Source: Agrobacterium tumefaciens (GTDB lineage Bacteria > Pseudomonadota > Alphaproteobacteria > Rhizobiales > Rhizobiaceae). From it: DNA of 64,000 bases. Positions within the stretch are counted from its first letter, which is position 1; the number at the start of each line of letters is the position of its first letter. The notes below the pieces were generated by a model. That model did not search any database and was not told the DNA's origin. It saw only the letters and a list, made by a program, of their open reading frames with translations. Below are positions 25,066 to 44,317 of this stretch, in pieces. A program made the translations under genes and the position numbers. The stretch covers positions 100,531 to 164,530 of the forward strand of contig NZ_CP115844.1 of NCBI RefSeq assembly GCF_013318015.2. The letters run 5' to 3'.

Positions 25066-25970
25066 CACCGTTCCCCGAGACCATGTGAACAATCCGTAGA
25101 AAAACGGGAGCGATTTTTCAATCTGAGCTCTTCTCCAGCCCTGAGACACTCTCGCGCCAGGATTGCCGTGGGGTCAACGACGTGCATGTCGACCGTCGCT
25201 GACGCGGCGATCAAATCCCATATTAGGGGCAACTCTGTGCAAGCCAAGACCGACGCGGCGGCTCCAGCGTCAGCGAGCTCAGTTAATGCAAGGGACAAGG
25301 CCTCTTTGCCCTCGTCGACCCTATTAGCTTTAACCGCGTCGATCGCATTTGAAACGCCAGCGCACGCGCTCTCAGAAGGCACAATCGATTGCAGCCCGAC
25401 TTCGCTTAAGCCATGCTGATAGATTCCGGCGGAGATCGTTCCCTGCGTTCCGAGAATACCGACAACCGACCCTCGAGGCAGCATCCCGGTGATGTGGCGA
25501 CACGTAAGCTCGACCATGTTCAAAATCGGAGCCTTGGATATTTCCCTAATCTCGGCGAGCCAATGGTGAGCGGTGTTGCATGGCATCGCAATTACGCTGG
25601 CGCCGGATCGATTCAGCTTTTCGATCGCGCTCAAAATGAATGGAAGGCTCGAGGGAGCATTTTCGTCTAGAATAGAGGCGGTCCGATCTGGTGTTGAGGG
25701 ATCAGCAAGAACAATCATTGGAATGTGATCCTGATCTCGATCTCCCTCTGTTTGGTCCGCGATTTTCTTGAGAAGGTCGAGTGTTGCTAACGGACCCATG
25801 CCTCCTAAGATACCAACGAACTCGACCGAGGGGATTTTCTGCTCATCTACAATCTTGCTTTCGAATTCAGCTCCCATCCGCCCGCAGTTCGAACAATCGC
25901 GATTGCATATGCCGAGATAACCTTCCGGTTCTCGCAGATGGGGGTCAGTGCAGTAATCTGTTCCCATCAT
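25065..25970 (-). CDS. Asp/Glu racemase family protein
   Basis: A 301-residue protein. The two catalytic cysteines are in MPCNTAHHW and LACTELPLI, and GGMGPLATLDL is the aspartate-racemase N-terminal motif. The first 45 residues are extra and contain ICNRDCSNCG, a four-residue-spaced cysteine cluster that could bind metal. It probably makes D-aspartate or a related D-acid for the NRPS; none of the NRPS proteins has an obvious epimerase domain. GGAG precedes the ATG. A 237-base gap with small hairpins separates it from the upstream NRPS gene. Confidence 0.86.
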   Translation of the reverse strand: MMGTDYCTDPHLREPEGYLGICNRDCSNCGRMGAEFESKIVDEQKIPSVEFVGILGGMGPLATLDLLKKIADQTEGDRDQDHIPMIVLADPSTPDRTASILDENAPSSLPFILSAIEKLNRSGASVIAMPCNTAHHWLAEIREISKAPILNMVELTCRHITGMLPRGSVVGILGTQGTISAGIYQHGLSEVGLQSIVPSESACAGVSNAIDAVKANRVDEGKEALSLALTELADAGAAASVLACTELPLIWDLIAASATVDMHVVDPTAILARECLRAGEELRLKNRSRFSTDCSHGLGER

Positions 25971-26207: not shown

Positions 26208-29200
26208 TCAAACTCTCCGAGCTGCAAGATCCCGGAGCTCTGCTGGTAAATAAGAGATATTGTGGTCGGAAAAGGCACCGAGCGTTTGCTTGTCGAAGAT
26301 CGTGCGGAGCGGAATTTCAACTCCTAAAGTGCTTCGCAATTTTGATAGCATGCGAGCGGCACTGAGTGAGTGGCCCCCTAGATCGAAAAAGCTGTCATCA
26401 ACGCTGACCGAGGGAACGTTCAGGATCTCCTGCCAAATATTCGCTACCACTTGCTCGAAAGCAGTCCTCGGCGGGACGTGCGATTTGCGCCCTTGGTGCT
26501 CAGGATCCGGCAAAGCACTCTTGTCGAGCTTTCCATTGACTGTCAGAGGAAGAGCCTGCAGCGGCACGATAGCTGACGGTATCATGTAGTCCGGCAGGAT
26601 GGTCTGAACAAATACTCGGAGGTCTGCGATGTCGAGTTCAACGCCGGCTGCGGGGATAACGTAAGCGACGAGGCGAGACGCCTCGGCGCCGCCATAGATG
26701 CGCGCGATAACTGCGGCCTGCTGCACGGAGGGATGACGGGCCAGGGCGGTCTCAACCTCACCGGGTTCGATGCGATACCCGCGGATCTTGACTTGTTGAT
26801 CGGCCCGGCCGAGGAAGATCAGCTGGCCGTCCTCACGCCAGCGGGCCCGATCTCCCGTTCGATAGAGGCGCTCGCCTTTCCCGAATGGACTCGCGACGAA
26901 CCGCTCCGCCGTCAGATCGGGCCGGCCGAGATAGCCGCGTGCGACGCCAGCGCCTCCAATGAAAATCTCACCCGCAACGCCGATCGGTACTTCCTGCATC
27001 TCACGGTCGAGCAACTGAACGACGGCGTTGCCGATTGGTTTGCCGATAGGAATAGAGGCTTCATCGCAAGTTTGGACGATCGGAAAGTATGTCGTCGTCA
27101 TGGTACATTCTGTCGGCCCGTACAAGTTGACGAGTTTGAGGTCTCGCCCGCTACGAAGCAAGCTGACCGCGAGCTTGGGAAGGAGCGGCTCGCCGGAGGT
27201 GAGCACGATCCTAAGGCTCCCGAGAGCTTCAGGATTGGAAGAGGAGCACTCTATCAATGCATGCAAATACGACGGAGTTATGCTCAACAGGGCGCTCGGT
27301 TGATAGAAAGCAATCTTATCGAAAAGATGCTCTGGATCCCGTGCAGATTCTTGATCGAGTAGGATGCAGCTCGCGCCAATCGTAAGAGGATAAATTAGGT
27401 CCCGGAGCGACGCATCGAAACCCATTGTCGGGATCTGTACTATAACATCACTATGATCGAGGCCAAAACTTTGGTCCAGAAACCGGAAATAGTTCGCGAT
27501 TCCGGTGAAAGTTGACATCACGGCCTTGGGCTGGCCACTTGATCCTGAGGTGAAGTAGATGGCCGCGACGTCTCTCTCAGAAAGGGAGAGAAGTTTAGGG
27601 CGGCCATCGGCGTTTCGACAGGATATGAGTTCTTCGAATTGGATGTACTCACGTTCCGAGGAAACCTTAATCTTGTCACAGATGACCAATCCGCATCGAG
27701 CGGTTGTTAGAACTACTTCGATGCGTGCCTGGGGCAGTCGGGAGTCTAAAGGGACGTAAACCGCTTTAATCTGCATGAGCGAGACGATCGTGGCGACGGT
27801 CACCACAGATCGAATGGTTTCTACGCCGACTATTGCGCCTGGCTGCACCCCCAGTGAAACTAGGCGACCTGAAATCTTGCCGACCAGAGCCATGAACTCG
27901 ATGTATGTTAGTGCTTGTGTTCCATCATCGATAGCTCGACGCGACCCGTGCACCTGAGCGCAGTGATAAATTCTTTCAACCACGGAAAATGAAGAAGCCT
28001 CGCTCAAGGAAGCTCTCCCAGAGTAGCTTTTGAGTATTTCAAGCTCGATCTTTGAGAGGAAATTGATTTTTCGGAAAGAGCGTGTGGGGTCGTCGATCGC
28101 GTTCTGGAGGAAGTTCTTGAAGTGCTCGACGAACCGTTCGGCGGTGGTGCGCAGGAAAAGGTCAGTCGCAAAGTCGAGCCGACCCTGATAGGTAGAGCCG
28201 GTTTTTTCCAGATATATGGCAAGGTCGAATTTGATGAACGGGCGCCGATTGATGGCGAACCACTCAACCGCAAGCCCATGCATGATCGGAAGCGGTTCGG
28301 GCTCGCCCTGGAGCGTAAGGGTGGTCTGCAGGAGAGGTGTGCGCCCGGCCGTCCTCGGCAAGTTCAGAGCCTCAACGATCTTCTCGAACGGGACCTCCTG
28401 ATTGGCATATGCTTCAAGCGCAGAGGCCCGGACCCGTTCAAGAAGCTCCGTGAATGATGGGGCGTTACTCAAGTCGACCCGTATCGGCAGAGTGTTGACG
28501 AAAAATCCGATGACATTTTCCATCTGTTGATAGGTGCGCCCAGAAACCGGTGAACCCACGATGATATCGTCTGCTTCGGTCCATCGACTGAGCAAAGCTT
28601 GATAGACCGCGAGGAAGACCATGTAGGGTGTGACTTTGTGCTCCCGGCAGAAGGGTTCGAGTTTCTCCACAAGTTCGATTGGAAGGTCGAAGCTGACGCT
28701 GTCGCCTTGGAAAGTTGGGGCCGACGGGATCGAGTAATCTGTCGGAAGCTCGAGCGGCTCCGGCGCATGCGCAAGGGTCTGGCACCACGATTGAAGTTGA
28801 TCTTCGAGTGCCTGCGATGAAAGCGCGCGCCGCTGCCAACTGGCATAGTCGCTATATTGGATCTGCAGATCCGGCAGCGTTGGTGGTACTCCACGCTGTA
28901 AAGCATCATATGTAAGCAGAAGCTCGCGAGCTAGTAGACCTGCGGACCACCCATCGAAGGCGATGTGATGGATAACCGCTAGAAATATGAATTCCTCTGG
29001 CGCGACCTTGATCACGGAAACACGCAAGATCTCCGAGGAAGGCTCCATGCCTTTCGCAAGTTGCCCGTCGATCCACCTGGCCAATTCCAAAGTTGCGTCG
29101 TGTCGTCCAGAGAAGTCAACGAACCCTACCTCCACCTCATGCTGGCACGCGCTGAGCATCGGCGTCCCGTCGGCAGCCGTCCGCACTAGGGTCCGCAACA

Positions 29201-29477
29201 CCTCGTGGCGAGAGACCACACCACGCAATGCAGTCTGGACCAAATCCAGATCGACTTTGCCCACGAACCGAAGTGCGAAGGGGACATTATAGCTGGCACT
29301 GGCCGCAGGCTCGATCTGGTTATACAGCCACAATCGCTCCTGCCCAAAAGAAACCTCCTCTTTCGAAGCCGCTCCCCATATCGGCCCCGAAATCGTCTCG
29401 GAAAACGCCGCCGTCTCTTGTTCGACCAGTGCTCTGAGACGAGCGTTTCGTTCCGAATCGGTTGCGCTATCGTCCAC
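26208..29477 (-). CDS. NRPS, C-A-T module
   Basis: A 1089-residue single module: condensation domain (about 30-455; HHIAFDG at 170-176), adenylation domain (about 480-985; TSGSSGQPK, YGPTE, NGKLD) and carrier domain (LGGHS, serine 1037). By-eye pocket code is D-A-R-S-L-S-L-M. The GTG at 29477 was chosen because GAGGA lies six bases upstream; it overlaps the stop of the A-T gene by 11 bases. It is expected to take the residue loaded by that protein. Residues 28-479 and 826-1001 are encoded by DNA that appears identical to the C-A-T-C gene at 39698, in opposite orientation. Confidence 0.95.
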   Translation of the reverse strand: MDDSATDSERNARLRALVEQETAAFSETISGPIWGAASKEEVSFGQERLWLYNQIEPAASASYNVPFALRFVGKVDLDLVQTALRGVVSRHEVLRTLVRTAADGTPMLSACQHEVEVGFVDFSGRHDATLELARWIDGQLAKGMEPSSEILRVSVIKVAPEEFIFLAVIHHIAFDGWSAGLLARELLLTYDALQRGVPPTLPDLQIQYSDYASWQRRALSSQALEDQLQSWCQTLAHAPEPLELPTDYSIPSAPTFQGDSVSFDLPIELVEKLEPFCREHKVTPYMVFLAVYQALLSRWTEADDIIVGSPVSGRTYQQMENVIGFFVNTLPIRVDLSNAPSFTELLERVRASALEAYANQEVPFEKIVEALNLPRTAGRTPLLQTTLTLQGEPEPLPIMHGLAVEWFAINRRPFIKFDLAIYLEKTGSTYQGRLDFATDLFLRTTAERFVEHFKNFLQNAIDDPTRSFRKINFLSKIELEILKSYSGRASLSEASSFSVVERIYHCAQVHGSRRAIDDGTQALTYIEFMALVGKISGRLVSLGVQPGAIVGVETIRSVVTVATIVSLMQIKAVYVPLDSRLPQARIEVVLTTARCGLVICDKIKVSSEREYIQFEELISCRNADGRPKLLSLSERDVAAIYFTSGSSGQPKAVMSTFTGIANYFRFLDQSFGLDHSDVIVQIPTMGFDASLRDLIYPLTIGASCILLDQESARDPEHLFDKIAFYQPSALLSITPSYLHALIECSSSNPEALGSLRIVLTSGEPLLPKLAVSLLRSGRDLKLVNLYGPTECTMTTTYFPIVQTCDEASIPIGKPIGNAVVQLLDREMQEVPIGVAGEIFIGGAGVARGYLGRPDLTAERFVASPFGKGERLYRTGDRARWREDGQLIFLGRADQQVKIRGYRIEPGEVETALARHPSVQQAAVIARIYGGAEASRLVAYVIPAAGVELDIADLRVFVQTILPDYMIPSAIVPLQALPLTVNGKLDKSALPDPEHQGRKSHVPPRTAFEQVVANIWQEILNVPSVSVDDSFFDLGGHSLSAARMLSKLRSTLGVEIPLRTIFDKQTLGAFSDHNISYLPAELRDLAARRV
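26475..27002. repeat. Inverted long repeat, copy 1 of block B (528 bp)
   Basis: Encodes the end of the adenylation domain, from EMQEVPIG to the linker before the carrier domain. Matches 42170-42697 in opposite orientation (coordinates sum to 69172). I checked both junctions base by base and the encoded protein throughout; it appears identical. Confidence 0.9.
28043..29394. repeat. Inverted long repeat, copy 1 of block A (1352 bp)
   Basis: Encodes the condensation domain up to the C-A linker, ending at FLSKIE. Matches 39760-41111 in opposite orientation (coordinates sum to 69154). Sequences diverge abruptly at both ends. Confidence 0.92.
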
Positions 29478-31350
29478 TCTGTTCCTCGCTAGCAAGCAAC
29501 TGCGCTCGGGCAAAGATGTCCTGCTCTCGCTTAGTGACATATGCGTCAACGACAGCGGCCAACTTCTCGATCGTGGGAAACTCGAATATTGTCGGCAGAG
29601 GGAGTTTGACTTGAAAGTCCCGCTGGATGCGAGAGTGAAGCCGCATCGCCATAAGAGAATGACCGCCAAGCTCGAAGAAAGTCTCATGGACTCCGATCGG
29701 AGCGACTTTAAGAACGTCCTGCCATATTTCGGCGATTACCCTCTCGATGTCGGTCCGTGGGAGAACTTGTTCAATCCCGCTCGGGTTCTCAGGATCAGGC
29801 AGAGCGCTACGATCGAGCTTGCCATTAACGGAGAGGGGGAGCGCCTGAACTGTAACAACAGCAGACGGAATCATGTAGTCCGGCAGAATGTCCTGAAGAA
29901 ATGCTCTGAGACCGTCAGTGTCAACTTTGAAGTCCCCAGCTGGCACGACATAGGCAACAAGGCGAGCCGAATCGGCATTGCCGTAGACGCGCGCAAGAAC
30001 TGCGGCATGATCCACTGATGGGTGCCGCGCCAAGGCGGTTTCAACCTCGCCGGGCTCAATACGGTTACCCCGTATTTTGATCTGTTGGTCGGCTCTGCCG
30101 AGGAAGATCAATTGTCCGTCCTCGCGGATGCGCGCTTGATCTCCAGTCCGGAAAAGAAGGTCGCCTTTATGGAAGGGGCTGGCGACAAATCGCTCGGCGG
30201 TGAGGTCGGGGCGACCGAGATAACCGCGTGCGACGCCTGCCCCTCCAATGTAGATCTCACCGACGACGCCGTTGGGGACTTCCCGCATTTCCGCGTCAAC
30301 GAGGTGGACGAATGCATTGTTAATTGGCTTTCCGACTGGAATGATTTCCCCTTGGAAATCCCTAGGGATTGGGAAATAGGTCGTAGTCATTGTGCATTCG
30401 GTTGGACCATACTGGTTTACGATAACTGCATCGGTGCCGAAAACACGCTGAACCTTCTCCAGGAGCCGTGGTTCGAAGATCTCGCCGCTGACCAAGATCA
30501 GCCTAACCGATCTTGACCAGTCCTCTTGGCTGAGCTGGTCACAAAGTAAGCCAAGGAGCGACGGCGTTATGCTGAGGATCGCGGATATCTCTCCGGACCG
30601 CAACGCGTCTTCATATGGTTCAATATCCCGAGTAGAGGTTTGGGCTGGGATTACCAAAGTACCTCCGACCGCCAACGGAGTGAAAATATCGCGAATTGCC
30701 GCATCGAATGTCAGTGCGGATATGTTCAAGGCGGTGTCGCGGTCGTTCACGCCATATTCCGATATAAGATATTGAAGATAATTGAGGACAGCCCCATGCG
30801 ACGCCGTTACAGCCTTTGGCTGACCGGTCGAGCCAGATGTAAATGCGACATAAGCGGCCGCGACGCGGTCTCCACCAACATCTATCGAACAATTTAGCTC
30901 GTCCAAGCCCTCCCCCAAATCTACGACGAGCAGGCCCGCCGAAAGAAATGCCGCCTTTGTGTCTCCGATGGTCACCACTGCCTTCGCGGCCGAGATGGTG
31001 AGCATCAAGTTGATACGCTCGCGCGGAAACTGAGGATCGATCGCAACGAATGCCGCTCCACGGGCCAAGATCCCAAGAAGGCCAACGATCATGTCGAAAG
31101 ACCGGGGAATGGCGACAGCGACGACGTCGCCATGTTCGATGCCTATGCGAGCGAGGCGTTGCGCGAGGTTTTCAGCTTGAGCTACCAGATCTGCGTAGGT
31201 CAGGTGTCTGCCGGAAAATTTGATGGCGGGAGAGTCAGGCACAGTATCAGCTGTTCTCCGGACGAGATCGTAAAGGCAACTTGCCTGAGCAACGTTGTCC
31301 CGCAGATCTGTAAGAGACCGTGACGATCCGAATTCTTCAATGTCTGACAT
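29467..31350 (-). CDS. NRPS loading protein, A-T
   Basis: A 627-residue protein with an adenylation domain (about 25-515; TSGSTGQPKAV, YGPTE, NGKLD) and a carrier domain (LGGHS, serine 565), and no condensation domain. It should therefore start the assembly line. By-eye pocket code is D-A-R-S-L-S-Q-M, close to those of the modules at 1 and 26208. It lies 63 bases after the LeuA-like gene and overlaps the next NRPS gene by 11 bases. The neighbouring elongation enzymes make an unusual homo-amino acid a reasonable but unproven starter. Confidence 0.95.
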   Translation of the reverse strand: MSDIEEFGSSRSLTDLRDNVAQASCLYDLVRRTADTVPDSPAIKFSGRHLTYADLVAQAENLAQRLARIGIEHGDVVAVAIPRSFDMIVGLLGILARGAAFVAIDPQFPRERINLMLTISAAKAVVTIGDTKAAFLSAGLLVVDLGEGLDELNCSIDVGGDRVAAAYVAFTSGSTGQPKAVTASHGAVLNYLQYLISEYGVNDRDTALNISALTFDAAIRDIFTPLAVGGTLVIPAQTSTRDIEPYEDALRSGEISAILSITPSLLGLLCDQLSQEDWSRSVRLILVSGEIFEPRLLEKVQRVFGTDAVIVNQYGPTECTMTTTYFPIPRDFQGEIIPVGKPINNAFVHLVDAEMREVPNGVVGEIYIGGAGVARGYLGRPDLTAERFVASPFHKGDLLFRTGDQARIREDGQLIFLGRADQQIKIRGNRIEPGEVETALARHPSVDHAAVLARVYGNADSARLVAYVVPAGDFKVDTDGLRAFLQDILPDYMIPSAVVTVQALPLSVNGKLDRSALPDPENPSGIEQVLPRTDIERVIAEIWQDVLKVAPIGVHETFFELGGHSLMAMRLHSRIQRDFQVKLPLPTIFEFPTIEKLAAVVDAYVTKREQDIFARAQLLASEEQSGR

Positions 31351-31413
31351 GATCGACTGCTCCCGTTTACTGAATTACTCGCTCATATCCGTCTCAGACA
31401 ACACAGTCTCCGA

Positions 31414-32682
31414 TCAGGCGAACAGTACTTTTCGCTCTTTTAAGTCGTTCTGGTCTGAGCCTCTTCCGAACCCCTGTTCGTGCAGATATGCTTGGAAATC
31501 TTCCTTTCCCAAGACTCCTGATCCGCGGCTAAAAGCTTCAGCTTTTACCCAGTTTAGTGACGACGAAATTTCGTCATTACTCAGCGAGAACCCGAGCTCT
31601 GTCGCCACGGCCGCAATAACACGTGTGCTTGCAAGGGCAGTAAGATGGACTTGTGGCGGGATACCGAGAACCGTCTGCGGATTAAACGGTTGAAACAAAT
31701 CTGGATTCGTGAATGGCGTTCCAGTCGAGATCGAGTTCACGCCTGTACCTACAATTGGGTCGGTCGCTCCTAGAGGCCGCCCGGAAACGTCGCTCACATA
31801 GCGAGCCAAAGATGGGAGCATTTTTAGGTTAATTTCCTGGCGCCACAAAGGCGCTCGAACTCCGAACCTCTTAGCAAAAGCCTCAGGTTGAAACCCGAGG
31901 ATGAATAGCAATTGTTCGGTGGCCGCCATCCCTGCTCTTTCTCCAAGAGAGAGCCACGAGCTTGTAAGACCGTAAACGCCAGCGGAGAGGGCTTCGAGCG
32001 TGTTCACAAGCCCAAAGCCGAGGTCATTGTGCATGTGCGCCACAAAACCTACTTCGCTGCCAACACTTCCGACAAGGTCACGATAGTAAGTCCTACTTTC
32101 TGATGGATACAAGGAGCCAACGGTGTCACATACTATAGCCATGGACATGCCTGCTCCAGTCAACGCCACGGCAGTATCGGCAACGCGACCTGGGTCGCTA
32201 CGACAGGCATCCGCAAGTGCTACGTCGACGCATAGCTCGGGCCGCTTATCTTTCGCATACCGCACCATGTCGACGGCTGATTTTGCTGCCTGTGCTCCGT
32301 CGCAATGCATCATAGTCTGAGCCATTCGGTCGGAAGCTGGAACGGCTATAAATATTCGGGGAAACTTCGCCCCATCGACTGCTGATAAGAGAAGATCTAT
32401 ATCCTCGCGGATAGCGCGCCCGGCGGCGCCAATGTAGCATTCTTCAACCTCCTCCGCGACCTGGCGGGTTGCGCGGAACTCCTCTTTACCTGCGCTCGGG
32501 AAACCAGCATTGAAGACGAGATGGTGCATAGCCGCGGTGCCGAACAATGCGGATTGTCGTCTTGCGATCTGCACTCGCTGATCCCCATTCAGGAGAGTTT
32601 TGCCCTGAGCTCCGTCGCGCGCTATCTCCTCATGAATGATCACCTGGCTCCTTTGAGCGCTTTCTCGGATCAAATCAGACAT
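31414..32682 (-). CDS. LeuA/HMG-CoA lyase-like enzyme (2-oxoacid elongation condensing enzyme)
   Basis: A 422-residue TIM-barrel protein. EEIARDGAQ near the start is the R-D-G-x-Q motif; HMHNDLGFGLVNTLEA carries the H-x-H metal ligands; GERAGMAATEQLL follows. These features are shared by isopropylmalate, homocitrate and citramalate synthases and by HMG-CoA lyase. It lacks the roughly 120-residue leucine-feedback domain of full LeuA. ATG 32682 has GGAGGG upstream. It is 55 bases after the dehydrogenase gene and precedes the loading NRPS. I infer condensation of acetyl-CoA with a 2-oxoacid; a lyase or aldolase reaction is the alternative. Confidence 0.85.
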   Translation of the reverse strand: MSDLIRESAQRSQVIIHEEIARDGAQGKTLLNGDQRVQIARRQSALFGTAAMHHLVFNAGFPSAGKEEFRATRQVAEEVEECYIGAAGRAIREDIDLLLSAVDGAKFPRIFIAVPASDRMAQTMMHCDGAQAAKSAVDMVRYAKDKRPELCVDVALADACRSDPGRVADTAVALTGAGMSMAIVCDTVGSLYPSESRTYYRDLVGSVGSEVGFVAHMHNDLGFGLVNTLEALSAGVYGLTSSWLSLGERAGMAATEQLLFILGFQPEAFAKRFGVRAPLWRQEINLKMLPSLARYVSDVSGRPLGATDPIVGTGVNSISTGTPFTNPDLFQPFNPQTVLGIPPQVHLTALASTRVIAAVATELGFSLSNDEISSSLNWVKAEAFSRGSGVLGKEDFQAYLHEQGFGRGSDQNDLKERKVLFA

Positions 32683-32737
32683 GCTGCCCTCCATTTGAAC
32701 GGCGATAGAATTTAATGTCCTCAAACGCCGAACCGGT

Positions 32738-33682
32738 CTAAGGAACCCCGTCCCAACCGCCAGGCGACTCCTCGTTGCGAAAGCCGGCGCCGACCCGTTC
32801 TTCCAAGAGTTTCGCTACGATCGTCAGGTCTGCCAAAGGACCGCTGCTGGCGATTGCCTCGCGGTAGATAGCTTGTATGGCCTGTCCCACCGCCATTTCG
32901 ACCCCCGCGGTTTCTGCGGCGGCAAGGCAGGCCGACACATCATGGTCGACCAGCGCAAGGCTGGCGCCGAAGTCGAACGTTCTCGTGAGAACATGGTTGG
33001 GAAGTTTGACGAGGGTGACATCACTCGCTGCGGATCCAGCGTTGATTACCTCAAGGAATACACCGGGCGAGATACCGACTTTGCTGGCGAGCGTCAGGGC
33101 TTCAAGAGCTATCACCAGATTACCGGCGGTAATAAGATTATTGGCCACCTTCAGATATTGGGCTTGACCGACGGCATCGCCAACGTAAACGATCTTGGAT
33201 GCGTAGGATTCGAGGATGGGTTTCAGGCTCTCCGCGAGCGCAGAAGGGCCGCTCACCATTGCAGCGAGCTCGCCGCGTTGAGCTCGTCGCGGCCCGCCTG
33301 TGACAGGCGCATCCAATGTTTGGATCTCTCGCTCAGCGAGCGTCCCTTCTATTTTGGCGGCCAGCTCGGGGCCGGTCGTCCCGACGTTGATGTATGTGTG
33401 CACACGATCGCCGTGCAAAATACCGTCTGGGCCACCGGTCACGCTCCAGTAAGAACCGGGGCCACTCACGCATCCTAGTATGACTTCACAACTTGTAGCT
33501 AGATCACGTGCGCTCGATAAGGCTCGGAACCCAGCCCTCTTCAATAACTCAGTGGCAGTCGGATCGATATCACAGATTGTGACATTGTAGCCGCCGTCTG
33601 CCAGTCGCCGGGCGATTGGCGCGCCCATTTTTCCTGCTCCAACGATTCCGATGTTCAATCCGTTTGCTGCCGAGCAAGACAT
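32738..33682 (-). CDS. Beta-hydroxyacid dehydrogenase (HIBADH family)
   Basis: A 314-residue NAD(P)-dependent enzyme. IGIVGAGKMGAPIARRL is the dinucleotide-binding motif, DAPVTGGPRRAQRGEL the substrate loop, and KVANNL holds the catalytic lysine. Family members oxidise beta-hydroxyacids; 6-phosphogluconate dehydrogenase relatives also decarboxylate. Placed directly before the LeuA-like gene, it may do the LeuB-type oxidation in the elongation route, where no LeuB homologue is present. It could instead act on a beta-hydroxylated amino acid. Confidence 0.9.
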   Translation of the reverse strand: MSCSAANGLNIGIVGAGKMGAPIARRLADGGYNVTICDIDPTATELLKRAGFRALSSARDLATSCEVILGCVSGPGSYWSVTGGPDGILHGDRVHTYINVGTTGPELAAKIEGTLAEREIQTLDAPVTGGPRRAQRGELAAMVSGPSALAESLKPILESYASKIVYVGDAVGQAQYLKVANNLITAGNLVIALEALTLASKVGISPGVFLEVINAGSAASDVTLVKLPNHVLTRTFDFGASLALVDHDVSACLAAAETAGVEMAVGQAIQAIYREAIASSGPLADLTIVAKLLEERVGAGFRNEESPGGWDGVP

Positions 33683-33773
33683 TACATCTTCTTTCAGGAA
33701 GGAATTTTTGACACAATAATACGAGGTGAACCGACAATAGAGTTCAGTTGTGTTTCTTGTTAAGTGACGGGGC

Positions 33774-33797
33774 CGGAATATTTCCGAATATATTCCG
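33774..33797. promoter_or_regulatory. Dyad CGGAATA-N10-TATTCCG before the dehydrogenase-LeuA-NRPS unit
   Basis: Perfect seven-base arms with a ten-base spacer, 92 bases before the start of the dehydrogenase gene and just after the ABC-transporter stop. AATATATTCC in its right half recurs in the dyad at 35736, ahead of the ABC transporter. This is consistent with a shared operator, perhaps for the GntR/FCD protein at 37881. Confidence 0.4.
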
Positions 33798-33810
33798 TAA
33801 AATTATGTCC

Positions 33811-35715: not shown

Positions 35716-35735
35716 ACCGAGGGTGGAGTGGAAAG

Positions 35736-35756
35736 TGGAATGGTAAATATATTCCA
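35736..35756. promoter_or_regulatory. Dyad TGGAAT-N9-ATTCCA before the ABC transporter
   Basis: Perfect six-base arms 20 bases before the transporter start, in the short gap after the sulfotransferase stop. The shared decamer AATATATTCC links it to the dyad at 33774. Confidence 0.4.
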
Positions 35757-35777
35757 GTTTATTGCCGAGAGATACGA

Positions 35778-36455
35778 TTAGAACCCATATCCAAAACGAT
35801 CGATCACATAGTCGAACCGCTTGGCTACTATATTGCGCGTTTCAGTGTTATAGTAATCTCGGTAGCCAGTTCGAACAGTGAAGTTTAGCCGCGCCAATGC
35901 TTTTCCCGGAACAATTTCCGCCTTTTTACAAAAGAGAGCCAGATCTTCTTCCAGAGTTTCAAACCGAGCGACACTTGTTACCATGTCCGCCCCTTTCTCG
36001 TCCATGAACCAGTCCTGCGGATTTCCTTCGCATTCGTTGATACGATTGCCCCCATATTCAGACATGATGAAGCTTGAGAAGTCGCCGAGTTTAGCGACCA
36101 CAAACGCGTCGTTGCGTAAGCTGGAAAAACGATGCGCTTTCTCAAGCCACCAGCAATAACTGGAAACCATCAGGTCCCACGGGTTGCGCACAACTGCCAA
36201 CCGGCCGGTGCTTTCCCAAAGGTCGCTTCCGACAATTGTGTAAAGATCACGAGCTTTGATATGTTTGTGTAGGCGGTGTTCACAATATTGAGACAGCTGT
36301 GCTGCAGCCGACTGCTTTTGTCGCAGAGGCGTCGATGCCTCCAGAAAGTCGTGCACAGAGGTGCCCCCACACTTAGGGATATGAATAAAAATGACGCGTT
36401 GCTCTGGTTTGATTGGGTAGACCCGTTTAAACGGCATCGCAATTGAACCCGTCAT
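35778..36455 (-). CDS. Sulfotransferase family protein
   Basis: A 225-residue protein. VIFIHIPKCGGTSVHDFL is the 5'-phosphosulfate-binding P-loop of family 2 (carbohydrate-type) sulfotransferases, and AVVRNPWDLMVSSY is the 3'-phosphate-binding segment. It should move sulfate from PAPS to a hydroxyl or amine, possibly on the sugar added by the glycosyltransferase encoded just upstream, because the two genes overlap by ATGA and share a GGAGAGG site. PAPS would come from cysD-cysNC at 17745. Confidence 0.88.
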   Translation of the reverse strand: MTGSIAMPFKRVYPIKPEQRVIFIHIPKCGGTSVHDFLEASTPLRQKQSAAAQLSQYCEHRLHKHIKARDLYTIVGSDLWESTGRLAVVRNPWDLMVSSYCWWLEKAHRFSSLRNDAFVVAKLGDFSSFIMSEYGGNRINECEGNPQDWFMDEKGADMVTSVARFETLEEDLALFCKKAEIVPGKALARLNFTVRTGYRDYYNTETRNIVAKRFDYVIDRFGYGF

Positions 36456-37915
36456 ATCCTCTCTCCGTCGAAGTTATGATCACACATGGGAGTGGCGAGC
36501 GTTGTAAGAACAGTTACGGCAGTGCGCTCGGCGTCGTAACGACGGTAGGTTTCGGCAAGTTTCTCGCAGTTTGCTTTGTAACGTTCATTCTGCAAAATGG
36601 CCTCAACAGCCCGTCGTATGCTTCGCGGCGTCGCCCGTTTAAGGCTTGAAGATTCGCCCAGGCCATGAAACTTAACCCGAGCCCCACAGCCGGGTTGGTC
36701 GGCGCGCATGGGATAGACCAAAACAGGTACTCCGATCGCGAATGCTTCCTTCAGGGATCCGCCGCCGCCGTGTGTGATCAGCAGCGAACAGGCCTTCAAG
36801 ATTTCTTGCTGTGGTATCCAGGGATGTACTCGCACGTTACTGTACGACAAATGATCGCTCATTTGGATTGCCGCAACATCTTCCGCAGAACCCGCCGCGA
36901 TAACGAGGCGGTATTCTGAGTTCCCGAGAGCCTTGATCACATCGAGATAGAAGGGCACGATATGTGCATGAGAAGCGCGCCGCACGGTTCCAAGCGAACA
37001 GAGAACCAAGGGACCATCCCCTTCAGGAACAAATTCGGAGATATCCGAAGTGTCAGCAGATTGCCGCACGCACGGTCCCACAAAAATTGCCGGACCAAGA
37101 TTTTCCGGTTCCCTTGGGAAATCAAATTCTCTGGCCTGCAGGACAATTTCGGGCACGCCGGCGTATCGCATATCGAAACGAACAGGACGATCCATGCGGC
37201 GGAATTTGCCCCCCGCGAGTTTTTCGATAGCCGCCTCTTCGAGCCAACGATTATCTGCAAAAATCAGATGATTTACTGACTCCTTTAGGCAGTACCAAAA
37301 ATAGGAAAGTTCTTGTCTCTTCCATGCTAAAGCGACGCGTAGCTGACCTGCCTTCCCGGCTTTAGGCACTAGCGTGGACGTGTAGGGAGGTGTCATCGGT
37401 GAACGTGTCAACAGCGGCTTGGTGCTGACGGACACACACTTTGCTCCCGTCTTATCGAAGAATGGCAGATATTTCAGAAGGAACGGGTCAAATACTATGA
37501 GGTCGGGAGCATTACGCTCCACGAAAAGTGCGATGTCAGACTGTATGGCCATCAATCGAGCATTGCGACGGTCGGCAATGGTACCCCGGCGAAAGAAGGC
37601 ATCGGCGATGCTTCGTTGCTTTTTGGTGCCCTCCAGCCATTTAAAGGAAACAACACCGAAGGGCTGCCCGCGGAAATGATGAGCAGCGCTTGGGGAGACT
37701 ATATAGGTAACTTGATTGCCGGCTTCGTAGAGGCGCTGGGCGAGACCCAGAGTTCCGTTGAGGTGGCCGATGTACCGGTCGATAACAAACACAAAACGCT
37801 TGGCTCTCACCTCTGTTTCAGAATGAGTAACCCGTGGTTCGGGCCTCGCGCCGCCGGCTGGGGTAACCCGGTAGCAGGAGCTACTGGCACCTAAAGGCCC
37901 GAATAAGTCCTGCAT
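36452..37915 (-). CDS. UGT/MGT-type glycosyltransferase (GT1-like)
   Basis: About 487 residues, GT-B fold. The N-terminal half has FVFVIDRYIGHLNGTLGLA; the C-terminal half has PWIPQQEILKACSLLITHGG followed by GSLKEA and DQPG, the nucleotide-sugar-binding signature of macrolide and UDP glycosyltransferases. It probably glycosylates the peptide. The start is uncertain: ATG 37915 is used, an ATG six codons earlier is possible, and both lie inside the end of the GntR gene. The stop overlaps the sulfotransferase start. Confidence 0.88.
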   Translation of the reverse strand: MQDLFGPLGASSSCYRVTPAGGARPEPRVTHSETEVRAKRFVFVIDRYIGHLNGTLGLAQRLYEAGNQVTYIVSPSAAHHFRGQPFGVVSFKWLEGTKKQRSIADAFFRRGTIADRRNARLMAIQSDIALFVERNAPDLIVFDPFLLKYLPFFDKTGAKCVSVSTKPLLTRSPMTPPYTSTLVPKAGKAGQLRVALAWKRQELSYFWYCLKESVNHLIFADNRWLEEAAIEKLAGGKFRRMDRPVRFDMRYAGVPEIVLQAREFDFPREPENLGPAIFVGPCVRQSADTSDISEFVPEGDGPLVLCSLGTVRRASHAHIVPFYLDVIKALGNSEYRLVIAAGSAEDVAAIQMSDHLSYSNVRVHPWIPQQEILKACSLLITHGGGGSLKEAFAIGVPVLVYPMRADQPGCGARVKFHGLGESSSLKRATPRSIRRAVEAILQNERYKANCEKLAETYRRYDAERTAVTVLTTLATPMCDHNFDGERI

Positions 37916-38567
37916 CGCAAAGCCCCGGGACACATTTGAGTTTCAATTCTAGTTCGTCGTGCAGTTTTGCCGCGGCCGCCTGCTTGTTCCTCTCGCGTAC
38001 AGCGTGCACGAGCGCCTCTAGAATTTCGATATAGACGGCTGCTTGCGATTCTTGCTCAATGAAAAGCGACCGGAGATAGCGCGTTTTCTCGTGGACGCCG
38101 CGGACTACTTCGAAGCAAGCTCCAGAACCTGCGGCTCGAAGACAGTCCTCGAAAAAAAGCTCGAGGCTGGAAAGGGCAGAAGCACCCCCTTCTCGGATTG
38201 CATCGAGGTGAAATAGCCACCCCTCGGTCAGCCGATTAAGTGTCGCAGTCTTAGCATGCTCAATAATGTGTTCCACCGAGCATTTCACCAATTGCGAACG
38301 GAGCATGTAGAGTTCGCAGTTTTCCGATACATTCAAAGGCTTCATAAAAAAGCCCTTGTTGGGATGGGTCAGTACCAGCCCCTCCGCATTCAAGCGAATG
38401 AGGGCTTCTCGTACAGGTGTGGCGCTGACTTTAAATGCATCGGCCAGGCTCCACGGTTGCAGTTGCTGTGAAGGCGAAAATGCGTAGCTGACCACCATCT
38501 CCTTCAACTGCGAGTAAATAGCAGCGCTGGATCTAGCTTCATGGGAGGCATTTGAGGGCATTAGCAT
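37881..38567 (-). CDS. GntR-family regulator, FCD type
   Basis: A 228-residue protein. The N-terminal winged helix (about 15-80) includes VSATPVREALIRLNAEGLV, the GntR recognition region; the C-terminal all-helical domain (about 90-215) is FCD-like and would bind a small carboxylic acid ligand, often with a metal. The gene overlaps the glycosyltransferase start by 35 bases, so it is the first gene of the tailoring unit or transcribed with it. It is the only regulator inside the NRPS part of the window and the best candidate to control it. Confidence 0.88.
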   Translation of the reverse strand: MLMPSNASHEARSSAAIYSQLKEMVVSYAFSPSQQLQPWSLADAFKVSATPVREALIRLNAEGLVLTHPNKGFFMKPLNVSENCELYMLRSQLVKCSVEHIIEHAKTATLNRLTEGWLFHLDAIREGGASALSSLELFFEDCLRAAGSGACFEVVRGVHEKTRYLRSLFIEQESQAAVYIEILEALVHAVRERNKQAAAAKLHDELELKLKCVPGLCDAGLIRAFRCQ

Positions 38568-38750
38568 CCTCTCTCCGCAATATAGCGGCGATCCGTTGAA
38601 CAGCGTCGTTCCTCATCATGTCCTCATATACAAAACGCAGATTGAGGCACGGCGCAAGCTACCATTTTAAGTAGTCTATATATGGGAGTAGCCTGCTAAC
38701 CGGCGAGTGAATTCGCTTCAGATAAGGGTCACCGCAGCCGGAGTTGGCGG

Positions 38751-39524
38751 CTATGATCCTCTTCTCGTAATCCTGATCGCTACCGAGAGGTAGCTTGAGG
38801 CGAATGCCACATATTCGAAAGCGGCTCCGCTTTCACTGACGAATTCAGTAAGTGCTTTGTACTCATGCTCCCGCCATCCAGGGTAGTTCAGGAATTCGTC
38901 GAAGACGATGATCGTCCCGGGCCCGATCCGGGTGCGGAGGCCGAAGAGGACATCGCGGGTACTACTATACAAGTCACAGTCAATATGGAGCAGACTGAGA
39001 TCGTTCGAGGCCGTTTCCGCGAGGTAAGACGGTATCGTTTCAGCGAACATTCCAGGGATGATCGTCGCTGTTGGCGGCAGCCCGGCCGGCACGCTCCCGC
39101 CTCGACTGAACTCGCCCTTTCGGCGGTCATGCCTCCAGTCCTCGGGTAGACCAAGGAAAGAATCAAATCCGTAAACGGAATGATGGGGGAGCGCCTCGCA
39201 AATGACCTTGAGAGTCCGGCCATCCATCACCCCGAACTCCAGAGCGTCACCGGTAGAATTTACTATCGAACACGCGTGCTGAAGCAGATCAACGCGGTTT
39301 ATCAAATTAGCGGCAAGAGGAAAATGATTCTCCATGAAATCAGCCGCTTCGAAGGCCGCTTTGAGGCGAGCGAACTTCCAGTAGTCATATGGCCGAACCT
39401 CTCGCTCATGGCTCGGCGGGAATGTCTCGGTGGGGTGACGAAAAAGAGCCTTGTCAATAATGACGGCCAGTTCGTGGTCCACAGCTTCAGCTTTGCGTCG
39501 ATAGCCTTCGGGTTGCTGCGTCAT
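38751..39524 (-). CDS. TylF/MycF-type O-methyltransferase
   Basis: A 257-residue class I SAM methyltransferase. ALEFGVMDGRTLKVI is the SAM-binding motif, VYGFDSFLGLPEDW the TylF signature, and LLHIDCDLYSST and IVFDEF supply the metal-binding acidic residues. The family methylates sugar hydroxyls of macrolides, which fits the glycosyltransferase two genes away. ATG 39524 has AGGAGG upstream; the frame is open 28 codons further. It diverges from the NRPS gene at 39698 across 173 bases. Confidence 0.88.
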   Translation of the reverse strand: MTQQPEGYRRKAEAVDHELAVIIDKALFRHPTETFPPSHEREVRPYDYWKFARLKAAFEAADFMENHFPLAANLINRVDLLQHACSIVNSTGDALEFGVMDGRTLKVICEALPHHSVYGFDSFLGLPEDWRHDRRKGEFSRGGSVPAGLPPTATIIPGMFAETIPSYLAETASNDLSLLHIDCDLYSSTRDVLFGLRTRIGPGTIIVFDEFLNYPGWREHEYKALTEFVSESGAAFEYVAFASSYLSVAIRITRRGS

Positions 39525-39697
39525 TCGACCTCCTATCAACATGTGTGCAACGGAGACTTTGGCTGCTGTAGGTCGACTATAGACAAACATTTCCCGAAAT
39601 ACTGGCAATTTTCTATATTATATTTCGCGATATTAATTCTTCGGTGGGGCCGTCGATTATCATCAAGTCCAGATGGACAGATTGAGGGCATCGACAA

Positions 39698-42600
39698 ATG
39701 GCACTTTCTGAGGTGGCTGAAACTTTTCTTCGAGCCGTAAACAAGCAAAAATCTACGGGGATTTCGGGGCCGATATGGGGAGCGGCTTCGAAAGAGGAGG
39801 TTTCTTTTGGGCAGGAGCGATTGTGGCTGTATAACCAGATCGAGCCTGCGGCCAGTGCCAGCTATAATGTCCCCTTCGCACTTCGGTTCGTGGGCAAAGT
39901 CGATCTGGATTTGGTCCAGACTGCATTGCGTGGTGTGGTCTCTCGCCACGAGGTGTTGCGGACCCTAGTGCGGACGGCTGCCGACGGGACGCCGATGCTC
40001 AGCGCGTGCCAGCATGAGGTGGAGGTAGGGTTCGTTGACTTCTCTGGACGACACGACGCAACTTTGGAATTGGCCAGGTGGATCGACGGGCAACTTGCGA
40101 AAGGCATGGAGCCTTCCTCGGAGATCTTGCGTGTTTCCGTGATCAAGGTCGCGCCAGAGGAATTCATATTTCTAGCGGTTATCCATCACATCGCCTTCGA
40201 TGGGTGGTCCGCAGGTCTACTAGCTCGCGAGCTTCTGCTTACATATGATGCTTTACAGCGTGGAGTACCACCAACGCTGCCGGATCTGCAGATCCAATAT
40301 AGCGACTATGCCAGTTGGCAGCGGCGCGCGCTTTCATCGCAGGCACTCGAAGATCAACTTCAATCGTGGTGCCAGACCCTTGCGCATGCGCCGGAGCCGC
40401 TCGAGCTTCCGACAGATTACTCGATCCCGTCGGCCCCAACTTTCCAAGGCGACAGCGTCAGCTTCGACCTTCCAATCGAACTTGTGGAGAAACTCGAACC
40501 CTTCTGCCGGGAGCACAAAGTCACACCCTACATGGTCTTCCTCGCGGTCTATCAAGCTTTGCTCAGTCGATGGACCGAAGCAGACGATATCATCGTGGGT
40601 TCACCGGTTTCTGGGCGCACCTATCAACAGATGGAAAATGTCATCGGATTTTTCGTCAACACTCTGCCGATACGGGTCGACTTGAGTAACGCCCCATCAT
40701 TCACGGAGCTTCTTGAACGGGTCCGGGCCTCTGCGCTTGAAGCATATGCCAATCAGGAGGTCCCGTTCGAGAAGATCGTTGAGGCTCTGAACTTGCCGAG
40801 GACGGCCGGGCGCACACCTCTCCTGCAGACCACCCTTACGCTCCAGGGCGAGCCCGAACCGCTTCCGATCATGCATGGGCTTGCGGTTGAGTGGTTCGCC
40901 ATCAATCGGCGCCCGTTCATCAAATTCGACCTTGCCATATATCTGGAAAAAACCGGCTCTACCTATCAGGGTCGGCTCGACTTTGCGACTGACCTTTTCC
41001 TGCGCACCACCGCCGAACGGTTCGTCGAGCACTTCAAGAACTTCCTCCAGAACGCGATCGACGACCCCACACGCTCTTTCCGAAAAATCAATTTCCTCTC
41101 AAAGATCGAGCAGAAATTCCTATCCGAGCTAAATCTGTCGCTACGGCCCCCTGCGCATCAGGGATCCATCCATGAGCGCTTCCGAACACAAGTGACCTTA
41201 TCGGCCGATAAGACTGCGGTCGTCTGCGGTGACGACGAACTGAGCTACTTCCAGCTGGACCTGTATTCTGATGATCTCGCGCGGCGCTTAACTCGTTCCG
41301 GGGTGAGACCAGGAGACCCAATTGGAATCCTCGCCCTGCGCGACGTGGAAACGGTGATCGGTATGCTGGGAATCCTCAAAGCAGGGGCGTACTATGTGCC
41401 TATCGATCCGGAACATCCGCCGGAGCGCTTAGCGTACATGGTCGAGAATTCGGCGATCTTGTTCGTCGTCGTTCCGAGCGACTTCCGTTTCGAGCCGACC
41501 TTCAAGCAAACGATCAATATCCCAGCCAGAGTCGAAAACGCTGGGACCGTAAAAGAATGGCTGGTGCTTCCCCCCATTCCCTCGAGCGCGACCGCTTACG
41601 TGATCTATACTTCCGGCTCAACCGGAAAGCCAAAGGGGGTCGCGATCGATCACAGAAATGTCCTGCGTCTGCTTGACGAGGTAGCTACCGAGATAACCTT
41701 TGGTTCCTCAGACGTCTGGAGCCTCTTTCACTCTTTCGCATTTGATTTTTCGGTTTGGGAGATGTGGGGCGCACTTCTCACCGGAGCAAAACTGGTCATT
41801 GTTCCGAAAGCGACTACAAGAGACCCGCAAGGATTTTTGCGCCTCATCACAGACCAGCAAATTACAATCCTCAGTCAGACCCCAGCCGCCTTTCGCAGGG
41901 TCTGCGAAAACCTTGAGACGTTCCCCGCCTTCTCTACCTCCAATCGGTTGCGTTACGTTATATTTGGAGGAGAGACGTTGTGGCCTCACGACCTCGAGCG
42001 TTGGTGGGATATCTGTGGTCACAAGGCAGAGCTCATCAACATGTATGGAATTACCGAAATCACCGTCCATGCGACATTTAGAAAGATGACGAAGGACGAC
42101 TTAACGCTAAGCCACATGAGCCCCATCGGTAAGCGTCTCTCAGGCCTGTCCTTGTACCTTTTAGATGGCGAGATGCAGGAAGTACCGATCGGCGTTGCGG
42201 GTGAGATTTTCATTGGAGGCGCTGGCGTCGCACGCGGCTATCTCGGCCGGCCCGATCTGACGGCGGAGCGGTTCGTCGCGAGTCCATTCGGGAAAGGCGA
42301 GCGCCTCTATCGAACGGGAGATCGGGCCCGCTGGCGTGAGGACGGCCAGCTGATCTTCCTCGGCCGGGCCGATCAACAAGTCAAGATCCGCGGGTATCGC
42401 ATCGAACCCGGTGAGGTTGAGACCGCCCTGGCCCGTCATCCCTCCGTGCAGCAGGCCGCAGTTATCGCGCGCATCTATGGCGGCGCCGAGGCGTCTCGCC
42501 TCGTCGCTTACGTTATCCCCGCAGCCGGCGTTGAACTCGACATCGCAGACCTCCGAGTATTTGTTCAGACCATCCTGCCGGACTACATGATACCGTCAGC

Positions 42601-44317
42601 TATCGTGCCGCTGCAGGCTCTTCCTCTGACAGTCAATGGAAAGCTCGACAAGAGTGCTTTGCCAGATCCTGAGCACCAAGGGCGCAAATCGCACGTCACG
42701 CCGCGAACCGACACCGAGCGAGCGCTTGTGGATATATGGCAGAACGTTCTAAAGGTGGAACCCATAGGGCTCGACGACAACTTTTTCGATCTCGGTGGTC
42801 ACTCACTCATCGCCATGCAACTTGTCGCTCAACTTCAACAGGTCTTTGGGACACAGCTTTCAGTGGAGACCATTTTTCAGCGACAAACAATAGGCCGCTT
42901 GGCAAAGTTCCTGGAGGCAACGAAAAAGGCGGGGGCCAAAGGTCTCCTAGCTCCCATCGTTCCAAGTAGCGGCGAACCGTACTGCAATGCAACGCCCGGG
43001 CAGACCCGAATATTCAAACAGGCGGTTGTTTTACGGGATCATGTCTCGGAAAACCTTTCCCGAATATATCGATGCTCGTCTGCAATGAATCTGGAAACTC
43101 TCAGAGCCGCCATTCGCGAACTCCAGGTTCGGAACGATAGCCTTGGCCTACGCTTTATTGAGCATGGCGATGAAGTAAAAATTGCCGCGTTCAACTACCC
43201 CCCAAGTGAACTCGACAAGCTCGACCCTTCTCCGGTTGGCGACGACAAAATGCCTTCTGTCATTGAAAGATTTTGCGCGAAGCCCTTTGATCTACGCAAT
43301 GGGCCTCCGTTCAGATGCGGATATCTGAGCGCCGCGAACGGCGATGTTATCCTTATCCTTGTTTTCCACCATATTGCAATTGATGGCTGGTCTATGGGCC
43401 TGGTGATCGACCAACTCGAGTTGCTTTACAACGGCGATAAAGTGCCAACGAAACATCCGTCCAGCGGCGGTATTGGATTTGTTGACTATGCCCGCTGGAT
43501 CGGCAGTGAAGAGGTCCGCAAAGAACTCAATGGACAACGGCAGTTCTGGAGGAAGAAATTACTGGATCTCCCAAGCTTACCTTTTGGGAATCTTTCGAAA
43601 GAGCCGCCGCCTGATGGCTTAACAGTTCCAGAGCGAAGATTCGATCATATCATTGATAGCAGCACTCGAGATGCCGTTCACGATATCGCGAAACGCGCTC
43701 AGGCCACGCCGCTTTCAGTGTTTCTAGTGGTCACCGCGCTATTGATCAAAGAACTGAGCAGCTCGGCCAATCTGGTCATTCTCCTCGCGGCCGCAAATCG
43801 CCGAAACTCTTCGCTCTCGTCCGTCGTTGGGCGCCTCTATAATTATATCCCGATAATAGTTAGGCTCGACGACAAGTGCAGCTTCGGCGATCTCGTTTCA
43901 ACGGTTCAAACGGAAATGAACCAGGCTTACGACCATCAAGAATATCCCTTCGAGCAACTCTATAACGATATCGCGGGTGCCAGCGGGGTCTTTTCACAAC
44001 CAATTGCCGATGTGGCAATGAATTATCAAACGGCGGAGCCGCTTCCTTGTTTCGAAGGCGTTGTTTCTCAACGCCTTTCAAATGCAGGAACACCCAATTT
44101 GAAGAGAGCGCTGAACGTAGGTTTTGTGGATACAGGGACCAAGATTTCTTTCAATTTACGCTTTAACGCCTGGAAGTTTTCTCACGAGGAGGCAGAGCGT
44201 GCCGACATCCTGTGGAGAATTGTCCTAAGCGAAGCTTGCTCGCGACCGAACAAGCCGGTCAAGGAAATTCTGATTGAAGCGTCCCGACAGAACCGAGACC
44301 AGTACGCCGTCCATTGA
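39698..44317 (+). CDS. NRPS, C-A-T-C protein
   Basis: A 1539-residue protein: condensation (about 22-450; HHIAFDG near 163), adenylation (about 480-985; YTSGSTGKPKG, YGITE, NGKLD), carrier (LGGHS, serine 1036) and a second condensation domain (about 1075-1515; HHIAIDG near 1224) at the C-terminus. By-eye pocket code is D-F-W-S-I-G-M-V, one position from the published threonine code DFWNIGMV. The terminal condensation domain has no adenylation partner in the same chain; it may pass the chain to another protein or to a free amine. DNA for residues 22-472 and 825-1000 appears identical to the C-A-T gene at 26208. Confidence 0.95.
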   Translation: MALSEVAETFLRAVNKQKSTGISGPIWGAASKEEVSFGQERLWLYNQIEPAASASYNVPFALRFVGKVDLDLVQTALRGVVSRHEVLRTLVRTAADGTPMLSACQHEVEVGFVDFSGRHDATLELARWIDGQLAKGMEPSSEILRVSVIKVAPEEFIFLAVIHHIAFDGWSAGLLARELLLTYDALQRGVPPTLPDLQIQYSDYASWQRRALSSQALEDQLQSWCQTLAHAPEPLELPTDYSIPSAPTFQGDSVSFDLPIELVEKLEPFCREHKVTPYMVFLAVYQALLSRWTEADDIIVGSPVSGRTYQQMENVIGFFVNTLPIRVDLSNAPSFTELLERVRASALEAYANQEVPFEKIVEALNLPRTAGRTPLLQTTLTLQGEPEPLPIMHGLAVEWFAINRRPFIKFDLAIYLEKTGSTYQGRLDFATDLFLRTTAERFVEHFKNFLQNAIDDPTRSFRKINFLSKIEQKFLSELNLSLRPPAHQGSIHERFRTQVTLSADKTAVVCGDDELSYFQLDLYSDDLARRLTRSGVRPGDPIGILALRDVETVIGMLGILKAGAYYVPIDPEHPPERLAYMVENSAILFVVVPSDFRFEPTFKQTINIPARVENAGTVKEWLVLPPIPSSATAYVIYTSGSTGKPKGVAIDHRNVLRLLDEVATEITFGSSDVWSLFHSFAFDFSVWEMWGALLTGAKLVIVPKATTRDPQGFLRLITDQQITILSQTPAAFRRVCENLETFPAFSTSNRLRYVIFGGETLWPHDLERWWDICGHKAELINMYGITEITVHATFRKMTKDDLTLSHMSPIGKRLSGLSLYLLDGEMQEVPIGVAGEIFIGGAGVARGYLGRPDLTAERFVASPFGKGERLYRTGDRARWREDGQLIFLGRADQQVKIRGYRIEPGEVETALARHPSVQQAAVIARIYGGAEASRLVAYVIPAAGVELDIADLRVFVQTILPDYMIPSAIVPLQALPLTVNGKLDKSALPDPEHQGRKSHVTPRTDTERALVDIWQNVLKVEPIGLDDNFFDLGGHSLIAMQLVAQLQQVFGTQLSVETIFQRQTIGRLAKFLEATKKAGAKGLLAPIVPSSGEPYCNATPGQTRIFKQAVVLRDHVSENLSRIYRCSSAMNLETLRAAIRELQVRNDSLGLRFIEHGDEVKIAAFNYPPSELDKLDPSPVGDDKMPSVIERFCAKPFDLRNGPPFRCGYLSAANGDVILILVFHHIAIDGWSMGLVIDQLELLYNGDKVPTKHPSSGGIGFVDYARWIGSEEVRKELNGQRQFWRKKLLDLPSLPFGNLSKEPPPDGLTVPERRFDHIIDSSTRDAVHDIAKRAQATPLSVFLVVTALLIKELSSSANLVILLAAANRRNSSLSSVVGRLYNYIPIIVRLDDKCSFGDLVSTVQTEMNQAYDHQEYPFEQLYNDIAGASGVFSQPIADVAMNYQTAEPLPCFEGVVSQRLSNAGTPNLKRALNVGFVDTGTKISFNLRFNAWKFSHEEAERADILWRIVLSEACSRPNKPVKEILIEASRQNRDQYAVH
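39760..41111. repeat. Inverted long repeat, copy 2 of block A (1352 bp)
   Basis: Condensation-domain block matching 28043-29394 in opposite orientation. The first 21 codons of this gene are unique to it. Confidence 0.92.
42170..42697. repeat. Inverted long repeat, copy 2 of block B (528 bp)
   Basis: Adenylation-domain C-terminal block matching 26475-27002 in opposite orientation. The 1058 bases between blocks A and B here have no such match to the 1040 bases between them in the other gene. Confidence 0.9.

Follow-up and report, generated by a model that had tools for sequence, protein, structure and literature searches.

Domains of nonribosomal peptide synthetases (NRPSs) and polyketide synthases from one gene cluster resemble each other more than they resemble their orthologues in related clusters, and a functionally divergent part can escape this concerted evolution, according to the portion of Medema et al. 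(2014, PMC4256081) that was available to us. Recombination involving the adenylation domain has been described as well: in the accessible parts of the respective papers, Calcott et al. (2020, PMC7486941) place hotspots at the border of the condensation (C) and adenylation domains and downstream of the specificity pocket near motif A5, Baunach et al. (2021, PMC8097286) report a variable adenylation core next to a conserved A-sub, and Booth et al. (2022, PMC9205934) describe intragenomic recombination of adenylation domains in the wol cluster, with a recombinant region that ends at A5 and A6, and name gene conversion and concerted evolution as a confounder. Concerted evolution, recombination of the adenylation core and its hotspots are therefore mechanisms already known in NRPSs. 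Here, we describe an unusually clear instance of them in genes A and B, two NRPS genes in a 64,000-nucleotide stretch of Agrobacterium tumefaciens DNA (the window; positions 100,531 to 164,530 of contig NZ_CP115844.1, hereafter C4). In contrast to the clusters of PMC4256081, as far as they are described there, the paralogues here are separate genes, each with a single module and inverted relative to one another, and the core that escapes sits between two homogenised tracts with sharp edges. We consider it very likely that the flanks of the two genes, the C domain on one side and the region from motif A6 to A10 on the other, evolve in concert by ongoing gene conversion, with the cores keeping separate orthologous histories.

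Gene A (26208-29477, minus strand) encodes a condensation-adenylation-carrier (C-A-T) module of 1089 amino acids with the Pfam domains C, AMP-binding, AMP-binding_C, and PP-binding; its start, a GTG at 29477, was picked to agree with that of the orthologue in Rhizobium sp. ZPR3. Gene B (39698-44317, plus strand) has the Pfam layout C-A-T-C and a ZPR3 orthologue, P0002, of 1539 amino acids, and its C-terminal second condensation-like domain (PF00668) lies at 42992-44299 on the plus strand (C4:143522-144829). The C domain, the adenylation domain (core and C-terminal part), and the PP-binding domain score above the Pfam cut-offs in both genes, and both contain HHIAFDG and FFDLGGHSL, which carry the HHxxxDG motif of C domains and the carrier serine motif GGHSL. 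The condensation block that the original prediction had seen in both genes runs from 28043 to 29394 on the minus strand in gene A and from 39760 to 41111 on the plus strand in gene B, and the two copies agree without a single mismatch over 1352 bp; a DNA search (E <= 0.001) found this sequence at exactly two places in the genome. A second shared block lies at 26475-27002 (minus strand) in gene A and at 42170-42697 (plus strand) in gene B. It had been called identical for 528 bases, and it matches at 527 of them; the sole mismatch, at 26508/42664 (CCG/CCA, Pro), is synonymous as read from the bases. The block begins at EMQEVPIG, which had been placed just before motif A8 but in fact precedes A6, so that the block spans A6 to A10: in gene A, motif A6 lies at 26972-26928 and motif A8, about 190 bp into the block, at 26810-26751. 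The sequences of the two genes diverge again before ISGPIWG and after RKSHV. Since the N-termini and the carrier domains (33 of 88 residues in common) are also unlike, gene B is not merely a copy of gene A with a new core.

Between the blocks lie the C-A linker and the adenylation core, at 27003-28042 on the minus strand in gene A (pocket code DARSLSLMT) and at 41112-42169 on the plus strand in gene B (DFWSIGMVH). In protein, 86 of 344 aligned residues (25%) are identical between the cores, and their DNA matches at 564 of 975 aligned positions (57.8%), compared with a mean of 58.8% over 20 shuffles scored in the same way; the score of the alignment itself is modestly above that of shuffled DNA (365 versus about 288, the mean of five shuffles). 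The cores thus have little or no similarity in DNA; describing them as unrelated was too strong, since both are NRPS adenylation domains. The left border is no more than about four residues away from where the Pfam C match ends, so that most of the C-A linker travels with the core, and the right border falls between A5 and A6. These borders match the hotspots reported in the available part of PMC7486941, and the right one recalls the A5 and A6 limits given for the wol cluster. The variable core and conserved A-sub likewise resemble what the accessible text of PMC8097286 describes, with the difference that here the linker accompanies the core.

A search with the gene A protein covered about 5.8 billion proteins, scored 8000 candidates, and gave 3218 matches; among the best 120 listed, two were close relatives, P0001 and P0002, both from ZPR3, and the remaining 118 were at 33-39%. 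P0001 (1089 amino acids, 94%) is the orthologue of gene A and P0002 that of gene B. We compared genes A and B with these orthologues, termed zA and zB (vA denotes the A. vitis relative of A), and classed every ungapped column as same, concerted (A=B and zA=zB, with the strains differing), orthologue-specific (A=zA and B=zB, with the genes differing), or other. The C block (450 columns) had 419 same, 28 concerted, no orthologue-specific, and 3 other columns, and the A6-A10 block (176 columns) had 168 same and 8 concerted columns and none in the remaining classes. The 39 variable columns of the shared blocks thus consist of 36 concerted ones, no orthologue-specific ones, and three border codons. 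In contrast, no concerted column was observed in the core (344 columns: 79 same, 198 orthologue-specific, and 67 other), the T domain (88 columns: 31, 44, and 13), or the N-terminus (15 columns: 4, 7, and 4), with 242 orthologue-specific columns in core and carrier together. A Fisher test of 36:0 versus 0:249 (core, T, and seven N-terminal columns), which omits the 3 and 84 other columns, gave p ~1.6e-46, a rough figure because the columns are not independent. The same two-track pattern is present in both strains. As the cores, carriers, and N-termini are orthologous between the strains, the mosaic is, judging from the sequences, older than the strain split. The flanks are alike within each genome and unlike those of the other genome, which argues that their identity has been upheld by later conversion; the borders are best read as the limits of conversion where homology runs out, not as insertion joints.

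This comparison bears directly on the claim that the junctions show, to the exact base, the site at which evolution joined a foreign core. Under such a recent exchange, the module would have been duplicated lately and one copy would have taken up a foreign core, with 28042/28043 and 27002/27003 as the scars. The near-perfect copies (0 mismatches in 1352 bp and 1 in 528), the non-sister cores described below, and borders near published natural recombination hotspots of adenylation domains (as given in the available part of PMC7486941) fit this scenario. However, ZPR3 carries the same mosaic with orthologous cores, so the exchange is not confined to this lineage; its flanks match each other and not ours, and one of its borders is shifted. 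The N-terminus and the T domain differ too, and the GC content of the cores (0.519 and 0.538) resembles that of the rest of the cluster; GC content was rejected as a foreign signature for cores A and B because it is not distinctive. A recent exchange is therefore very improbable, and the reading of the junctions as joints is not supported. As opposed to the single-exchange footprints in the portion of PMC7486941 at hand, the borders here would be limits of flank conversion.

A different worry is that truly different copies were made identical during assembly or polishing. In ZPR3, which is a separate record, the copies agree with each other within the genome in the same way, in a sequence specific to that strain, and copies several percent apart would be expected to map uniquely, not to merge; we see very little chance that an artefact of this kind produced the pattern. 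Strong selection or convergence, keeping the C domains the same without any exchange of DNA, could draw on the fact that C and A6-A10 are conserved NRPS regions. The identity is at the DNA level, though, with no change in 1352 bp and no synonymous differences, and the strains differ at 28 of 450 residues there, which leaves selection with next to no credibility.

According to the conversion model, then, each flank would be homogenised within each genome between the two inverted single-module genes, a change arising in one gene after the split would be copied to its partner, and the cores would be too dissimilar in DNA to be converted and would keep their own orthologous histories. To polarise the differences between the strains, we used a rule of our own, that one state be more than twice as common as the other and occur in at least 20 of 259 homologues. 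Nine of the 28 C-block differences could be polarised, three derived here and six in ZPR3, all of them common to both paralogues; conversion thus appears to have been active in both lineages. Because the linkage of N-terminus to core is identical in both strains, conversion without a fixed crossover fits best, and the process would mostly have run without crossover. The three other columns of the C block fall on the final three codons, which read KIE in A, B, and zA and NKD in zB; this places the border, LSKIE here and LSNKD in ZPR3 gene B, three codons apart. KIE in our gene B suggests a transfer from A to B at that edge, with a tract extending beyond its limit in ZPR3; the same outcome would be expected from a later change in zB. 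In comparison with the available part of PMC9205934, where conversion is a confounder, two strains make conversion directly visible here.

Several points weigh against this account. The one other strain found with both genes was compared as protein only, and 19 of the 28 C-block differences were not polarised. Conversion of the adenylation-carrier (A-T) gene next to gene A with A and B after the A. vitis split is only suggestive, the orthologue clades not being rejected, and the identity of the copies rests on the assembly sequence. The searches for further carriers had the following outcome. Outside its own genome, the C-block DNA gave only short weak matches of about 35-141 bp in three genomes (sets of 201, 39, 16, and 33 genomes, partly overlapping) and one 114-bp match among near plasmids. 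In 38 other genomes of the genus, including one same-species draft, the best match to the gene A protein was at 36%, and the C-block DNA was unmatched. For gene B, a search of 393 further genomes of the family, a sample of a larger group, gave at best, among the matches listed, 37-39% over C-A-T and 48% over part of the gene; the latter (G081:C43), a 4-kb contig, was set aside as a fragment of an ordinary multimodular NRPS. As a separate observation, the homogenised tracts have a GC content at third codon positions of 0.676 and 0.651, against 0.54-0.63 in unconverted parts of the same genes; GC-biased conversion might be the cause, and constraint is also possible.

The histories of core and flank were compared in trees, a check that the original prediction had itself proposed; these were built by a quick method with SH-aLRT support only. 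The trees had 48 rows, 36 of which were the best BLAST neighbours out of 1070 full adenylation domains extracted. Core A clusters with its relatives from ZPR3 and A. vitis (P0255) at 100 and, more loosely, with the A-T gene in a 10-row set with a support of 97. Core B lies with P0338 and with cyanobacterial and other adenylation domains (8 rows at 97 and 12 at 99). When cores A, zA, vA, B, and zB were held together, the approximately unbiased (AU) test gave p = 0.021; with moderate strength, cores A and B thus appear not to be sisters; sister cores would have meant divergence instead of exchange. Another AU test, in which the group held together consisted of A, zA, B, and zB only (p = 3.8e-7), was dropped as unfair, as it forced the A. 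vitis relative out. In the A6-A10 tree, all eight rows from A, B, the A-T genes, and their relatives form one clade with a support of 100. With the cores apart and the A6-A10 region in a single clade, core and flank differ in history: in these trees the flank is cluster-specific, and cores A and B are of separate origin. The A. vitis protein P0255 starts inside the C block, about 37 residues short of its end, which could reflect a contig break inside the repeat. The closest relatives of the cores are those in ZPR3 and, for core A, A. vitis (48%); beyond these, the best were at 36.7% and 35.2% for core A and at 45.3% and 47.3% for core B, too distant for a donor to be named.

How the mosaic arose in the first place is a question of origin only, and an old core exchange is compatible with conversion as the best explanation of what followed. 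An ancestral module would have been duplicated, a Thr-type core would have entered one copy ahead of the strain split, and conversion would then have kept the flanks identical. In favour of this history, the tree places core B among Thr-type domains from other phyla, with its A6-A10 block in the cluster-specific clade, and we give the history somewhat less than an even chance. Against it, the import of a core alone leaves gene B unexplained, with its differing N-terminus and T domain, and fewer segments need to have been replaced for the alternation to arise if two flanks were overwritten. The place of core B in the tree agrees with either course. Given the differing N-termini and carriers, we lean toward the flanks of two older modules having been overwritten, rather than a core having been imported into a duplicated module.

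The A-T gene (29467-31350, minus strand, from Pfam and its coordinates) lies immediately upstream of gene A. Its end overlaps the GTG start of gene A by 11 bp (29467-29477), an arrangement that suggests translational coupling. Its orthologues are P0241 in ZPR3 (94%) and P0242 in A. vitis (60%), and its own A6-A10 block (29643-30291) has 71.7% DNA identity to that of gene B. In protein, this block is identical to that of gene A at 132 of 176 positions (75%), compared with 111 and 112 of 174 (64%) between orthologues. An older conversion of the A6-A10 region between the A-T gene and A or B is suggested by these values; the orthologue clades in the A6-A10 tree were not rejected (AU p = 0.458 and 0.489).

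Pocket codes were read from the aligned pocket columns, at positions that we take to be those of GrsA. The by-eye codes of the original prediction, DARSLSLM and DFWSIGMV, were read right, but they do not differ completely, having D and S in common and differing at six of eight positions. Core A and its ZPR3 and A. vitis counterparts have DARSLSLMT, and the A-T genes and many of their neighbours have DARSLSQMT; with a single pocket position separating them, core A and the A-T gene may have similar substrates. Core B has DFWSIGMVH, ZPR3 gene B has DFWSVGMVH, and nine tree neighbours of core B have DFWN(I/V)GMVH or DFWSVGMVH. We take DFWNIGMVH to be a Thr code, on which assignment core B would be Thr-like. 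Among solved relatives of core B, LgrA was the best, with CytC1 (3vnq) and 5n9w among the top. Cores A and B presumably take different substrates, and both modules are presumably functional.

The left end of the window (1-3615, plus strand) holds the 3' end of a five-module NRPS, identified by module comparison, with the last module and a beta-lactamase-like domain (PF00144, listed for P0121). Two open frames that begin just left of the window and run on into it, taken from stop to stop (C4:84537-93047 and 93010-104145), contain an AMP-binding starter domain and five modules. The modules match one another with 0 to 3 mismatches per aligned piece (region C4:83500-101500) and differ in a cassette of about 410-495 bp between A3 and A6 and, in modules 2 and 5, at the carrier or linker end. 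Modules 1, 4, and 5 have one cassette in common (in module 5 at about 814-1308, plus strand, as worked out from module coordinates), and modules 2 and 3 each have another. The GC content is 0.61-0.63 in the frame, 0.572 in the module-1 cassette, and 0.493 and 0.494 in those of modules 2 and 3. The pocket code of module 3 is DILQLGLIW, presumably for Gly, and that of module 2 is VDFITSLGD, which we take to be beta-amino-acid-like. From these features, the five-module gene is a better candidate than A and B for a real joining of foreign specificity cassettes. No donor came to light for these cassettes: the only match to the module-2 cassette at E <= 1e-25 in 383 other family genomes was at 40%, and the best for module 3, compared only with domains already collected, was at 47%. 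For a 2830-residue part of the synthetase, none besides itself exceeded 55% among the best 120 of 8000 scored. Subdomain swaps after hormaomycin and GrsA were reportedly made by Crusemann (2013) and Kries (2015). The A3-A6 cassettes in an otherwise shared frame are like those swaps, with the difference that this case is natural and concerns largely identical modules on one plasmid-like contig.

The genome has 6.0 Mb, and the right edge of the window is the end of the 164,530-bp contig. Since the trb region (50786-63619) has 90% identity to plasmid NC_011991 (130 kb) of Allorhizobium ampelinum S4, C4 is probably a conjugative plasmid of a member of the Rhizobiaceae. A gene for a LuxR-type regulator is located at 48527-49231. 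Genes of an aconitase family (possibly LeuC-like, 14430-15854) and for isopropylmalate/homocitrate-synthase-like (31414-32724), hydroxyisobutyrate-dehydrogenase-like (32738-33682), and aminotransferase (23983-25149) proteins could possibly provide the peptide with a chain-elongated amino acid. Sulfate-activation-type genes (PAPS reductase, GTPase/APS kinase, and inositol-phosphatase family), together with a sulfotransferase and a glycosyltransferase, are located at 17745-21326 and 35778-37933, and the product may be sulfated and glycosylated.

With two strains at hand, the reach of conversion in an NRPS and its stopping points can be read column by column, and the case cautions against reading every sharp border of identity as the scar of an exchange. 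More speculatively, conversion could keep the C domain and the A6-A10 region as a standard and interchangeable frame inside which specificity cassettes are exchanged. The C blocks are inverted and about 10 kb apart, and a crossover between them would link the N-terminus of gene A to core B; it could flip about 10 kb, re-pair the A-T starter with the other core, and switch the peptide within a population, a course of evolution that we regard as unlikely. One C-domain sequence, identical to the base, precedes the two different cores of A and B, and in the five-module synthetase an identical C-domain sequence precedes three different cassettes, whose codes suggest Gly in one case, a beta-amino acid in another, and some third residue. 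Provided that the modules are active, the selection of the acceptor by the C domain must be loose.
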